This document shows positions 40,653-45,228 of a stretch of DNA of 64,000 nucleotides, in pieces. Made by a program: the position numbers and the translations under genes. The stretch covers positions 310,001-374,000 of the forward strand of contig NZ_CP098604.1 in assembly GCF_024499015.1 (NCBI RefSeq), read 5' to 3'. The DNA comes from Xanthomonas hortorum pv. pelargonii. GTDB taxonomy: Bacteria > Pseudomonadota > Gammaproteobacteria > Xanthomonadales > Xanthomonadaceae. The notes beneath the pieces are model-generated. The model did not search any database, had not been told where the DNA came from, and saw nothing but the letters and a program-made list of their open reading frames with translations. The first letter of the stretch is position 1, and each line of letters begins with the position of its first letter.

Positions 40653-41081
40653 TCAGTGATTGACGATGTCGCCGTGCATTGCCGCCAGTCGTGCGAGCAA
40701 GCGATTCTGCGTGCGGCGCGGAATCTTGCGCTGATCCATCGCCCAGTTCAGATCCTCGACCAAGGCATTGAAGTCGCCTTCGCGAATGGCCAGATGCGCA
40801 TGCGCCTGTTTCATCGACTTGGCGGTATCCGGGCATGGCCCGTCGCTGACTTGGCAGAATTTCTGCACCAGACGCTCGTTGAGCATGACGATATTGACGC
40901 GCGCGAATTGATCGACGATGCGTTGATCGTCGGCAATGCGCGAGAGCATGGTTTCCACCAGCGCCTCGATCCCGGCTTGCCCGCCGAGTTCGTCGTAGAG
41001 CGTCTGGCGCGGTTGCGTGGTGGCGCAGGCGCTCACCACGCCCAGCACGCAAAGCAGGCAGCAGCGCAGCCATCGGTTCAT
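40653..41081 (-). CDS. Group 1 truncated hemoglobin, predicted lipoprotein
   Basis: 142 residues. A lipobox (VSAC, Cys19) with Ala at +2 predicts an outer-membrane-sorted lipoprotein. The globin part begins LYDELGGQAGIEALVETMLSRI and contains MKQAHAHLAI, which places the proximal His. The distal Tyr of helix B usual in this group (DDFYxRV) is Leu here (ETMLSRI). Two Cys frame a short insert (FCQVSDGPCP). Haem binding by the lone proximal His is likely; ligand chemistry should differ from M. tuberculosis HbN. Its ATG overlaps the DUF3034 stop by one base (TGATG), making it the last gene of a coupled four-gene operon. Confidence 0.85.
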   Translation of the reverse strand: MNRWLRCCLLCVLGVVSACATTQPRQTLYDELGGQAGIEALVETMLSRIADDQRIVDQFARVNIVMLNERLVQKFCQVSDGPCPDTAKSMKQAHAHLAIREGDFNALVEDLNWAMDQRKIPRRTQNRLLARLAAMHGDIVNH

Positions 41082-41956
41082 CAGAACGCCACCTGCAAGG
41101 AAAGATAGGGACCACGTTGATCGGCGAGCGTGGCGATGTCGCCAAGGTCTGCCCAGGCCGCGGTGAACGACACATGCTTGCTGGGAAACCAGGCGACGAA
41201 TGCGTCTGCCCAGGCCTGTTCGCGCGCGAAGCCCAGGTTATCGGGTTTGTCTCGGTATTCCACGCCCACTGCCAGGGAGGGCAACAGCATTACCGCAGCG
41301 CTGGCCTCGGCCACCAGCCGGTAGCTGTTGCGACGATCGCCGCCGAAGCCGAGCAAGCCGGTCTGATTGGCGCGGGTGGCGCGCAGGGTGCCGTTGAGCA
41401 ACAGCTGATAACCGCCAACGCCTTGCAGAAACAGCCGGCTGGCACTGACGTACACATCGGTGCCGTGGTCGTCGCGCGCACCGATCGCCAGGGGCAGCGT
41501 GCCGTTGCGCAAACGCCTGTATTGCATGCCCAGACTGACTTGCGGCGCGCTCCCGTACACGAGGTCGCCCTGCAAGCGCAGCTTTGCGCCGAACACGTCC
41601 TGACCCAGCGCATTCCATGGCAAGCCCAATCGGTCCTGCAACGTGCCCAGATCCAGGCGTTGCCGCGCGAGCGAGAGTTCCAGCCGATTGCCGACGGTGA
41701 GCGCGGCGCCCTGCACATCCAATCGGTAATCGCCGCTGTCCACGTGGGTGGCGAACACGACGGTGGCAAGTTCATCGCGCGTGCCGTAGCCCGATAGCGT
41801 GGCCCACGGCACGATGCCTCCGCCGCTGCTGCCTTCGATCATCGACACGCCGCCGGTGGCAAGCAGACGCCCTTCTCCAGCGATCGCCAGTGTCGGCGTG
41901 AGCGCCAAACAACCCAATACTGCAGCAGACCGCGCAGCCCGCACCCACTTGCTCAT
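41081..41956 (-). CDS. DUF3034-family exported protein, probable beta-barrel
   Basis: 291 residues with signal peptide ending near AIAG. The rest is made of alternating amphipathic stretches and ends in Phe (GPYLSLQVAF), typical of outer-membrane beta-barrels. Recognised as DUF3034 from the pattern GGVSMIEGSSGGGIVPWATLSGYGT and the C-terminal WFPSKHVSFTAAWADLGDIA. Function is unknown. It overlaps the GGDEF-EAL gene by 4 bases (ATGA) and the globin gene by one base, so it is made together with both. Confidence 0.8.
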   Translation of the reverse strand: MSKWVRAARSAAVLGCLALTPTLAIAGEGRLLATGGVSMIEGSSGGGIVPWATLSGYGTRDELATVVFATHVDSGDYRLDVQGAALTVGNRLELSLARQRLDLGTLQDRLGLPWNALGQDVFGAKLRLQGDLVYGSAPQVSLGMQYRRLRNGTLPLAIGARDDHGTDVYVSASRLFLQGVGGYQLLLNGTLRATRANQTGLLGFGGDRRNSYRLVAEASAAVMLLPSLAVGVEYRDKPDNLGFAREQAWADAFVAWFPSKHVSFTAAWADLGDIATLADQRGPYLSLQVAF

Positions 41957-44337
41957 CGTTGCGCTCCTGCTTGCGCGGCCGGCACCAGATCGAGTTGACC
42001 CAGATCGAGTTGACGCATGCACCAGGCCACAAACGGCACTTCTTCCAGCGGCGGCGCGTAAAGATAGCCCTGCACCATGTCGCAGCCATAACTGCGCAGC
42101 AGCCCGAGCGCTGTGGCGTTTTCCACGCCTTCGGCGATCACGCTCAAGCCGAGGTTATGCCCCAAATCGATCGTGCTGCGCACGATGAATGCATCGTCGG
42201 TGCCTTCGGCCAATTGCATGACGAAACTCTTGTCGATCTTCAATTCGTTGACCGGCATGCGCTTGAGCTGCGCCAGCGAGGAATAGCCGGTGCCGAAGTC
42301 GTCGATGGACAGGCGCACGCCGACGCTGCGCAGCTGATGCAGCATGTGCAGCGCGAATTCGACATCGCGCATCAAGGCGCTTTCGGTCAATTCCAGCGTG
42401 ACCCGCTCGGCCGCCACCGCGTGATGCTCCAGACGACCGCGCACATAATCCGGCAGGCCGGGGTCGGACAGATCGAGCGCAGAGAGATTGATCGCCATGC
42501 CCAGCTCCAGGCCCTGGCTGCGCCATTGCGCCTGGCACCGCAGCGCCTCGTCCAGCACATAGCGGGTCAGCGGGTGGATCACCCCGGAGTGCTCGGCGAG
42601 CGGAATGAATTCGTCCGGGCCGATCGGCCCCAGCACCGGGTGATGCCAGCGCACCAGCACCTCGACCTGTTCGACGCGATCGCTGCGCAGGCAGATCTTG
42701 GGCTGGAAGCGCAAGGTCAGTTCGTTGCTGGCAATCGCCTGGCGCAGATCGCCAGTGAGCCTTAGACGACGCAGATGCTGCTCGTCCTGGCCCAGGCGAT
42801 ACACGCTGCTGGCACCGATGGTGATGACATTGCCGCCCTGGCGACGTGCGATATCGGCGCGCCGCAGCAAGGTATCCGGATCGGCGCCGTGTTCGGGGAT
42901 CAAGGCGATGCCGATGCTGGCTTCCAGCTGGATGCGCGCCTGCGGCAACGCCAGTGGGCGACGCAGCTGCAGCAGCAATCGTTGCGCATCCTGCTGCACG
43001 CTGGTCATATCGGCCTGCGCCACCACCACCATGAATTCGTCGCTGCCTAGCCGCCCGACCACATTGGGCTCCTGCACGACCTCGGCAAGGCGGCGCCCTG
43101 CTTCGACCAGCACCTGATCAGCGAAGTCGTGCCCCAGGCTGTCGTTGAGTTCCTTGAAGCGCTCCAGATCCAGGATCAGCACGGCGGCCGTACCGCCGGA
43201 GGCCACGGTCTGGTCGACCACCTGTTGCAGCCGCTCCAGCAGCCAGATGCGATTGGGCAGGCCGGTCAAGGCATCGTGGCGCGCCTGATGCAGGATGTGC
43301 TGCTCGCGGCTGGCGATCTGCTGCTGCATGCGCCCGAAGCTGTCGGCCAGCTCGGCCAGTTCGCGTCCGGGCGGCACCTGCACCGCGGTGTGGTAATCGC
43401 CGCGCTGGATGCGTCGTGCTGCCTGCACCAACTGCGCGACCGGCTTGCTGACGCTGCGCGCGAGAAAAATCGCCACACCGAGTGCGGCGGCCGTGGCCAG
43501 ACCGGCCAACAACAGAATGCGCAGCTTGAGGATGCGGTACGGTGCGACCGCACGATCCAGCGAGGCCTGCAAGGCGACCCGCACATGACTGTCGCCCTGG
43601 ATCGATTGCAGTTTGACCAGGTAACGTGCGTCGGCCAGCGTCAGCGGGATCGCTTCGCCCTGCCCCGCTTCGGCGGCGGGCAGCTGCTGCGGGAACTCGG
43701 CGCGCGCAGCCGGCTCCAGGGTGGAGGCCAGTACGCGCACCGGCGGGCCATCGGTGAAAAAGGTCGCATCCAGCCCGGTGGTGGTACGAAAGTCCTGCGC
43801 AAGCCCATCGCCGGACTCGTTGCCGATCGCGATCCAGCCCACCCGGTTCGGCGCCAGCACCTGCACCACCGCCAGCCGCACGATGCGTTGATCCAGTGCC
43901 ACCACCCCGACCGCGTGCCCGTCGCGCTGTGCCTGTTGCAGCAGGGCCTGCACGGCGCGCAATTGCTCGGCTTGCGGCAGATCTGCCAGCCCGGTCAGGA
44001 ATTCGCCATCCGGCGACAACAGCACCGCGGTCTGCGCCGACATGCGCGCGGCATGGTTGCGCAATGCCGACTGCATGGTCGGCACGTCGCCACTGGCCAC
44101 CGCCGCACGGAAACCGAAATCGTCGGCCAGCACCGAGGCCGACTGCAGCAGTTGCTCATCGCGGCGCACATTGATGCGTTGCCAGACGCGTTCGCCGATC
44201 TGCAGTTCTTCGCCGAGCTGCGCCTTGACGCTGCGCTCGGTGGCGACCTGCACCGCGATGAAGGTCAGCGTTTGCGTGGCGAGCACGACCAGCACCACCA
44301 AGGCCGCGATGCGGGTATGCAGGCGCATCGCCTTCAT
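41953..44337 (-). CDS. dCACHE-HAMP-GGDEF-EAL c-di-GMP signalling protein
   Basis: 794-residue inner-membrane protein. TM1 at about 9-31, periplasmic dCACHE_3-like sensor at about 32-270 (FRAAVASGDVPTMQSALRNHAARM), TM2 at about 272-294, HAMP at 295-350, GGDEF at about 355-510 and EAL at about 525-785. The GGDEF motif reads GSDEF (431-435), so cyclase activity is doubtful. The EAL motif reads EVL (559-561), but the other phosphodiesterase residues are present (INLS, ELTES, DDFGTGYSS at 679-687, KIDKSF, AEGVE), so c-di-GMP hydrolysis is likely. Start overlaps the cupredoxin-like gene (ATGA). The periplasmic domain would read a signal linked to its exported partners; that is inference. Confidence 0.92.
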   Translation of the reverse strand: MKAMRLHTRIAALVVLVVLATQTLTFIAVQVATERSVKAQLGEELQIGERVWQRINVRRDEQLLQSASVLADDFGFRAAVASGDVPTMQSALRNHAARMSAQTAVLLSPDGEFLTGLADLPQAEQLRAVQALLQQAQRDGHAVGVVALDQRIVRLAVVQVLAPNRVGWIAIGNESGDGLAQDFRTTTGLDATFFTDGPPVRVLASTLEPAARAEFPQQLPAAEAGQGEAIPLTLADARYLVKLQSIQGDSHVRVALQASLDRAVAPYRILKLRILLLAGLATAAALGVAIFLARSVSKPVAQLVQAARRIQRGDYHTAVQVPPGRELAELADSFGRMQQQIASREQHILHQARHDALTGLPNRIWLLERLQQVVDQTVASGGTAAVLILDLERFKELNDSLGHDFADQVLVEAGRRLAEVVQEPNVVGRLGSDEFMVVVAQADMTSVQQDAQRLLLQLRRPLALPQARIQLEASIGIALIPEHGADPDTLLRRADIARRQGGNVITIGASSVYRLGQDEQHLRRLRLTGDLRQAIASNELTLRFQPKICLRSDRVEQVEVLVRWHHPVLGPIGPDEFIPLAEHSGVIHPLTRYVLDEALRCQAQWRSQGLELGMAINLSALDLSDPGLPDYVRGRLEHHAVAAERVTLELTESALMRDVEFALHMLHQLRSVGVRLSIDDFGTGYSSLAQLKRMPVNELKIDKSFVMQLAEGTDDAFIVRSTIDLGHNLGLSVIAEGVENATALGLLRSYGCDMVQGYLYAPPLEEVPFVAWCMRQLDLGQLDLVPAAQAGAQR

Positions 44338-45023
44338 GGATGCGGCTTCTTCGGGTCGGCGCGACGAAATTTGTCCTGCAGCGCGCGCACGCGCTCATCC
44401 GGTGGTGCCGCCATCGGCGCGGCGCCGGTGGTCTGCAGGGTCACGCGGCGCTGCACTGCATCGCGCGCAAGCAGCAACGGCTCGGTGACCACGGCGCCCT
44501 TGATGCGCGGGTGCCAGACCCGCAGCGTGTAGGTGCCTGCCGGTGCATCCAGTTGCACGCGGCCGTCGCTGCCGGTCTTGCCGAAATACGGCGTCTCCAG
44601 CACGACGATATAGCCAAGCATCCAGTCGTGAATGTTGCAGCCAATGGTCACCAGGCCCGCCTGATCGAAGCGGATCGGCGTGGCCTTGGTACCCTGAAAC
44701 AGCGGCAATTCGAAACGCTTGGCAGGCGAAAAAGAATAGACCTGATGGCGGATCTGATCGTTATTCGGAAAGCGCACCAAGGTGCCGGTGCGCACCGCTA
44801 GGACGGCGGGCACGAACTGCGAATTGACCTGATCCATTTCCGCAGTCTTGGAAGCAGTGGGTGGCGCGGGGCGCGCCGGCTCCAGACTGACCACCGCATC
44901 GACCAACATGCCGTTGGCATCGGCCACGGTCACGCTGACCGGCGTTGCCACCACAGCGCTTGCGGCGCAGTACGCCAGCAATAGCGAAACGACACCTATC
45001 GGTTTGAACCATTTCGTCCGCAT
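44334..45023 (-). CDS. Exported cupredoxin-like protein ('methylamine utilization protein' family)
   Basis: 229 residues with signal peptide (cut near SAVVA). The fold is plastocyanin-like: possible type 1 copper ligands are the His in NNDQIRHQVYSFSP and Cys, His, Met in GCNIHDWML (C-x2-H-x2-M). After it comes a carboxypeptidase-regulatory-like part (GSDGRVQLDAPAGTYTLRVWHPRIKG). Databases often name this family for methylamine use, but no other methylamine genes are here. It is the first gene of the four-gene operon; its stop overlaps the start of the GGDEF-EAL gene. Confidence 0.82.
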   Translation of the reverse strand: MRTKWFKPIGVVSLLLAYCAASAVVATPVSVTVADANGMLVDAVVSLEPARPAPPTASKTAEMDQVNSQFVPAVLAVRTGTLVRFPNNDQIRHQVYSFSPAKRFELPLFQGTKATPIRFDQAGLVTIGCNIHDWMLGYIVVLETPYFGKTGSDGRVQLDAPAGTYTLRVWHPRIKGAVVTEPLLLARDAVQRRVTLQTTGAAPMAAPPDERVRALQDKFRRADPKKPHP

Positions 45024-45228
45024 GCTGCCCCCAGCCTAGTGCAATCGGCAGCGGGCGCCAGGCGAATCCGACGTCGCGCTAGCGATCAGACTGAGTTATC
45101 GGCTGAGGTGAACGCAAGCTTTAACCAGACGCGAGCGGAATGTTTTGAACAGAACTGTGGTGTCCGTCATTACCCGTGTTGCGAGCGCGGCTATTCGCTG
45201 CGCGCGCTGATAGGGACCGCGTGCTGGA
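45024..45228. other. Gap holding the promoter of the cupredoxin/c-di-GMP operon
   Basis: 205 bases without a gene between the 3' end of the 2OG-Fe oxygenase gene and the cupredoxin-like start. The composition is lower in GC than its surroundings around 45100-45180. No clear hairpin terminator was found for the oxygenase gene, so read-through is possible. Confidence 0.35.

Follow-up and report, generated by a model that had tools for sequence, protein, structure and literature searches.

Four genes on the minus strand of the Xanthomonas hortorum pv. pelargonii genome, here called cup, eal, duf and glb in their order of reading, look like a real cell-envelope sensing device, since many other bacteria carry these genes together as well. 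They lie within the 64,000-nt stretch of DNA that was analyzed in this study (NZ_CP098604.1, positions 310,001–374,000; assembly GCF_024499015.1), the whole of which is referred to below as the window. Their products are, respectively, an exported protein with a type-1 copper domain, an inner-membrane receptor that is probably a phosphodiesterase of cyclic dimeric guanosine monophosphate (c-di-GMP), a DUF3034 protein predicted to form an outer-membrane beta-barrel, and a predicted lipoprotein belonging to the group-1 truncated globins. We assign a probability of about one half to the reading that the set is an envelope-spanning sensory unit in which Cup would be the input of the receptor, and the barrel and globin would be its front end. 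Copper sensing, nitric oxide (NO) detoxification and polymer export are possible roles that we rank below it.

Layout and recurrence of the four-gene set

The genes cup (44334–45023) and eal (41953–44337) overlap by four bases (ATGA, 44334–44337), as do eal and duf (41081–41956; ATGA, 41953–41956, with the duf start codon ATG at 41956), and duf shares one base, 41081, with glb (40653–41081) within TGATG. The open reading frame list thus agrees with a preliminary description of this DNA, which had reported four overlapping genes (ATGA, ATGA, TGATG) and had treated them as a unit. The genes look like a single transcript; a promoter scan recognized 0 promoters at the ends of the set, and a terminator scan found three terminators against 3.1 expected, every one within eal and none at the ends.

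That the four genes form a unit was borne out by their recurrent clustering and co-occurrence across genomes. A phylum sample of 397 genomes was searched for DUF3034 and with alignments of Cup and of the globin. Matches to the Cup alignment were found in 106 genomes at E ≤ 0.001 and in 60 at a line of 130 bits, and matches to the globin alignment in 133 and 48 genomes, respectively; the 130-bit lines were our choice, read from gaps in the score lists, and as only the best 7 (Cup) and 10 (globin) candidates per genome were scored, absences are less certain than presences. DUF3034 was present in 46 of the 397 genomes, which covered 30 of the 232 genera sampled, and it was found in none of the 14 control genomes. 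At the 130-bit lines, all 46 of these genomes had the globin and 45 had cup, whereas DUF3034 was missing from 2 of the 48 globin genomes and from 15 of the 60 cup genomes. Fisher tests over the 397 genomes gave p-values of 2.7e-58 for duf with glb and 4.2e-45 for duf with cup, both of which overstate the association because the genomes are related.

The linkage was also physical. The globin gene adjoined duf in 45 of 46 loci, and when the four families were sought side by side, as the preliminary description had suggested, their joint occurrence was not rare: all four were clustered in 36 of the 46 DUF3034 genomes, representing 22 genera and 12 families. Within these clusters cup was on the duf strand in 29, and eal and cup were divergent in 7. 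Among the other DUF3034 genomes, five (G182, G190, G204, G214 and G335) had a cup–eal pair at a separate locus from duf–glb, one (G124) had eal–duf–glb together with cup elsewhere, one (G136) had cup–duf–glb, the eal match there being weaker and located close by on the opposite strand, one (G380) had a kinase, and one (G019) had cup and no receptor of this type. The best 80 of 586 confirmed loci, which were named and came from Xanthomonas, Pseudomonas, Rhodanobacter, Dyella and others, contained the complete set in 74 cases, with many in Pseudomonas and other genera. The other six comprised one locus with eal in pieces (L115) and five with duf–glb alone, three of which (L107, L116 and L151) came from the edge of a contig or from a contig of short length. 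It could be argued that neighboring genes have merely been inherited together without a joint function, as their reading frames overlap in Xanthomonas and such overlaps are slow to be broken up. We consider this highly improbable, however, given that the linkage outlasts a divergent gene order (7 of 36 clusters), a split into two loci (five genomes) and the exchange of the receptor output described below.

Predicted properties of the four products

The preliminary description had proposed an inner-membrane protein with a periplasmic sensor and cytoplasmic GSDEF and EVL domains for eal, and this is what the Pfam architecture of its product supports: dCache_3 (1.8e-10), HAMP (2.7e-13), GGDEF (1.7e-37) and EAL (2.4e-71, 240.3 bits). 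Seven positions of the EAL domain, which we take to be catalytic and metal-binding (E559, N617, E652, D679, D680, K700 and E736), were invariant in all 112 receptors compared. The GGDEF domain is itself present, but its motif reads GSDEF in the window and so departs from the active-site pattern GG[D/E]EF, and across the 112 receptors the motif was degenerate, with the first glycine in 40, the second in 54 and the aspartate in 82. Based on the invariance of the EAL positions and the variability of the GGDEF motif, the output of this receptor is probably c-di-GMP breakdown. In the record of X. phaseoli pv. phaseoli ATCC 49119 (CP094243.1; L084:4601-7822) the eal and DUF3034 genes are fused in a single open frame of 1073 aa. 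A second, closely related dCache–GGDEF–EAL gene was seen just 5' of cup at a number of loci, those named being all from Pseudomonas and a few records being counted twice (L048:4765-7200, L049:11951-14347, L096, L098-L101, L105, L112, L113, L115 and L133); in Pseudomonas lactucae MAFF 301380 (L115:4621-7000) the eal copy adjoining duf is in pieces and the upstream paralogue is intact.

Cup had been described as a cupredoxin-like protein with a histidine and a C-x2-H-x2-M motif, and both features were recovered. A type-1 copper domain of the amicyanin/plastocyanin kind occupies approximately residues 57–143 and is, in the AlphaFold2 model (predicted local distance difference test score 88.6), apparently set into an immunoglobulin-like domain (residues ~22–50 and ~145–204). 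The cupredoxin fold was seen in the model and in matches to PDB structures, while the profile scores were weak: 15.8 bits for Cupredoxin_1 (PF13473), below the 27-bit gathering cut-off, and 19 bits for amicyanin (TIGR02657), far under the curated cut-off of 110.2. H93, C129, H132 and M135 were invariant in all 165 Cup sequences of at least 90 bits (some records being present in two sets), and this full type-1 ligand set predicts a copper site. Relatives of Cup are named "methylamine utilization protein" or "plastocyanin" in public databases. The context seen here gives no backing to the former name; methylamine dehydrogenase (PF02975) had no match in the genome of the window, yet it also had none in any control genome. 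At one locus (L185:3981-4994) a distant relative of Cup adjoins a CCP_MauG di-heme peroxidase.

The product of duf is a DUF3034 protein (PF11231; 1.5e-111, 372.5 bits against a cut-off of 25) and shares as much as 98% identity with proteins of X. hortorum. Its AlphaFold2 model is a closed 12-strand outer-membrane barrel, in line with the likely barrel that had been proposed. The family has at least 5,084 clusters of relatives among the 8,000 candidates scored, and it was found in all 35 Xanthomonas genomes searched for DUF3034 alone. A 2.3-Mb genome (G078; L044 and L047) carries two DUF3034 copies, one with an internal stop. The structural neighbors of the model were FapF, KdgM, NanC and COG4313 barrels, at 6–11% identity in the alignments listed. 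The likeness to FapF raises the idea that DUF3034 is a secretion pore under c-di-GMP control, which would export a polymer and be gated by Cup, the globin and the receptor. This seems quite unlikely, as the KdgM, NanC and COG4313 barrels score nearly as high as FapF, to which the identity is 10%.

The globin encoded by glb matches Bac_globin (4.3e-13, 49.9 bits against a cut-off of 21) and HbN chains (best 2.6e-10). The preliminary description had called it an outer-membrane lipoprotein; a lipobox, V-S-A-C19, can be read by eye in the Xanthomonas protein, but it is lacking from some relatives, so that the globin assignment stands and the lipoprotein assignment does not extend to every relative. 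The proximal heme histidine, His94, was conserved in all 125 globins compared. The Xanthomonas protein also has a Cys76/Cys83 pair and non-polar residues at its distal-pocket positions (L46, L67 and L71). Among the 125 relatives, position 46 was L, V, I or M with one N, position 67 was L, F, V, I or A, and position 71 was L, F or I. The polar distal residues of group-1 truncated globins, which we take to be usually Tyr B10 and Gln at E7 or E11 though not defining in every member, are therefore missing at the positions linked through the HbN match. The non-polar pocket was considered as a trait specific to the clusters and rejected; three globins encoded away from DUF3034 (L188-L190) have it too, so it marks a wider group of globins. 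Three globins without an adjoining DUF3034 gene (L191 and L192) all have the first conserved cysteine and two have the second, with positions read from a residue ruler. Taken together, the invariance of the copper ligands, the heme histidine and the EAL positions suggests that the metal sites and the phosphodiesterase are functional.

Receptor exchange and the proposed signaling chain

At most loci cup was accompanied by a receptor gene. In 89 cup loci, drawn from the phylum sample and the family of genome G145, the gene directly beside cup was a full-length eal on the same strand in 61, a dCache–HAMP serine/threonine kinase in 9 and a short receptor in 2. An exchange of the output is seen at L066 and L160, where the gene after cup encodes a dCache_3–HAMP–serine/threonine kinase. 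In the family of G145, 31 of 59 genomes had a Cup match, 24 matches being above 90 bits; the loci read were 20 new ones together with L160 and L184, and two further matches above 90 bits were left out. The 20 new loci comprised cup with eal in 10, cup with a kinase in 7 (L234-L240), a short receptor in 2 (L241 and L242) and neither in 1 (L229). L240 is a complete cluster, cup–kinase–duf–glb, and the single case of a kinase within a four-gene cluster; this kinase is without the usual HRD and DFG motifs. At L241 and L242 the order is duf–glb–cup–receptor, and no output domain was found in the short receptors (L241:3591-4673 and L242:2503-3732), which seem to end after a membrane and linker segment. 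In a tree of the 89 Cup sequences (midpoint rooting, support values not examined), the nine kinase-paired sequences and those of L241 and L242 formed one group; the kind of Cup therefore matches the kind of receptor. In most cases Cup keeps company with a receptor, and duf–glb joins cup–receptor pairs of both kinds. The chain altering c-di-GMP that had been suggested in the preliminary description holds in part: there is a c-di-GMP enzyme under a periplasmic sensor, but c-di-GMP is inessential to the design because kinases, or receptors without a found output, take the place of eal in some genomes.

These associations bear on a different view of the locus, in which it is a detoxification or electron-transfer set, with Cup keeping a periplasmic globin reduced to destroy NO (or peroxide) and the c-di-GMP enzyme being merely co-regulated. 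The heme histidine and the copper ligands are both invariant, the nearest solved relative of the globin is HbN, which is an NO dioxygenase, and the peroxidase beside a distant cup would suit such a role. However, 9 of the 15 cup genomes without duf keep a full receptor beside cup (eal in 8 and a kinase in 1), and cup remains with the receptor when the receptor output changes; the link of Cup to the receptor is therefore closer than its link to the globin. As such, we regard detoxification as rather unlikely to be the function of the set.

In the sensory unit that we favor, Cup would be a periplasmic type-1 copper protein that contacts the dCache_3–HAMP receptor as its input subunit. The state of Cup, whether Cu(I) or Cu(II), or receptor-bound or unbound, would be relayed across the inner membrane and would set the EAL phosphodiesterase activity, with c-di-GMP presumably being lowered or spared as a result. 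The DUF3034 barrel and the exported heme globin would form an outer-membrane and periplasmic front end that conditions Cup; as our first choice, the globin, having no polar distal residues, would react with NO or O2 and may swap electrons with Cup. We infer that the signal is NO, O2, redox state or copper, the first three being suggested by the conservation of the heme and copper sites and by the non-polar globin pocket. A broader proposal, which we make only tentatively and hold to be doubtful as it stands, is that these loci define a class of dCache receptors with a dedicated blue-copper input, an output of c-di-GMP breakdown or protein phosphorylation, and a feed from an outer-membrane barrel and an exported globin, such that heme–copper redox chemistry on the outer side of the inner membrane would directly steer second-messenger and kinase signaling.

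Several observations weigh against the sensory unit. No eal, kinase or short receptor directly adjoins cup in 17 of the 89 loci, and in five of those 17 (L159, L166, L168, L174 and L178) a protein of ~410 aa that is outer-membrane-barrel-like by sequence is encoded beside cup; scans of two of these proteins (L159 and L174) gave no Pfam family match, and the arrangement fits a direct link between Cup and a barrel as well. DUF3034 was not found in 7 genomes of other genera in the family to which Xanthomonas belongs, and in G078 duf–glb is present but no cup was found. A tyrosine and a glycine that are common across the globin family are lost in Xanthomonas (12 of 12 sequences), so the heme chemistry there may differ. 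Lastly, no regulator box for NO, O2 or copper is conspicuous in the DNA 5' of cup at 144 loci. Seven simple patterns (FNR/Anr/Dnr, NsrR, NorR, CopR/CusR, Fur, Clp and NtcA-like) were compared there with letter-shuffled DNA, and five were at or below the shuffled mean; the slight excesses for Fur (8 versus 3.6) and NorR (5 versus 2.4) were not relied on. In the window this DNA is a gap of 205 bp (45024–45228, minus strand), the presumed site of the operon promoter, upstream of which is a 2-oxoglutarate (2OG)-Fe(II) oxygenase gene on the same strand; downstream of the four genes is a convergent short-chain dehydrogenase gene.

The lack of a CopR-like box above chance also counts against the set being a sensor of copper status, in which the barrel and Cup would handle copper ions and the receptor would report periplasmic copper. 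Such a sensor would leave no obvious part for the globin, and the ligands of Cup are those expected in a buried redox site of type 1 and not in an open copper carrier. We consider copper-status sensing to have little chance of being correct.

Comparison with known systems

In the open literature, with most subscription papers outside the scope, no description was found of this gene set, including its blue-copper partner, the attached barrel and globin, and the exchangeable outputs. The term DUF3034 occurs in a figure legend on retrons (PMC12548924) and in a Streptomyces gene table (PMC4255298). In the passages concerned, XAC2698 denotes nuoG or its subunit and not this locus (PMC7748154, PMC5504864), and truncated globins are treated in other settings (PMC3770913, PMC11102522).

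The locus is of wider interest. To our knowledge, the signals of most periplasmic dCache c-di-GMP receptors have yet to be identified, and conserved neighbors name likely partners for the receptor: a copper protein whose redox ligands are invariant, a barrel and a heme globin. A testable role also emerges for DUF3034, which has been a family without an assigned function. In addition, the natural variation in output behind a single input (EAL, kinase and none found) offers a route to the signal.

A membrane GGDEF–EAL receptor with a periplasmic partner is of a known kind, represented by NspS–MbaA and YfiBNR. In NspS–MbaA a periplasmic protein is likewise encoded beside a membrane GGDEF–EAL receptor and sets its phosphodiesterase activity; NspS is a solute-binding protein, whereas here its place would be taken by a type-1 copper protein, accompanied by a barrel and a globin. 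YfiBNR consists of an outer-membrane lipoprotein, a periplasmic protein and a membrane diguanylate cyclase, and likewise crosses the envelope in three layers with a c-di-GMP enzyme as its last member, but GGDEF is the only family in common, the present set having a copper protein, a globin and an EAL output.

The individual components also have recognizable counterparts. Cup has the fold and ligand set (His...Cys-x2-His-x2-Met) of amicyanin and other small blue copper proteins, but it is larger, carries its copper domain apparently inside an immunoglobulin-like domain and scores far below the amicyanin cut-off. The globin belongs to the same family as HbN and shares the proximal histidine and the CD1 phenylalanine. 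Unlike HbN, it is exported, has two extra cysteines and, at the Tyr B10 and Gln E11 positions, has aliphatic residues or phenylalanine (one asparagine among 125). The DUF3034 model has the 12-strand fold of the FapF, KdgM, NanC and COG4313 barrels, with which we know of no shared context. A parallel in composition is offered by outer-membrane electron chains of the Cyc2–rusticyanin type, which also combine a barrel, a heme protein and a blue copper protein within one envelope pathway. In those chains porin and heme form a single fused protein and the electrons go to respiration, whereas here the end point would be a signaling receptor.
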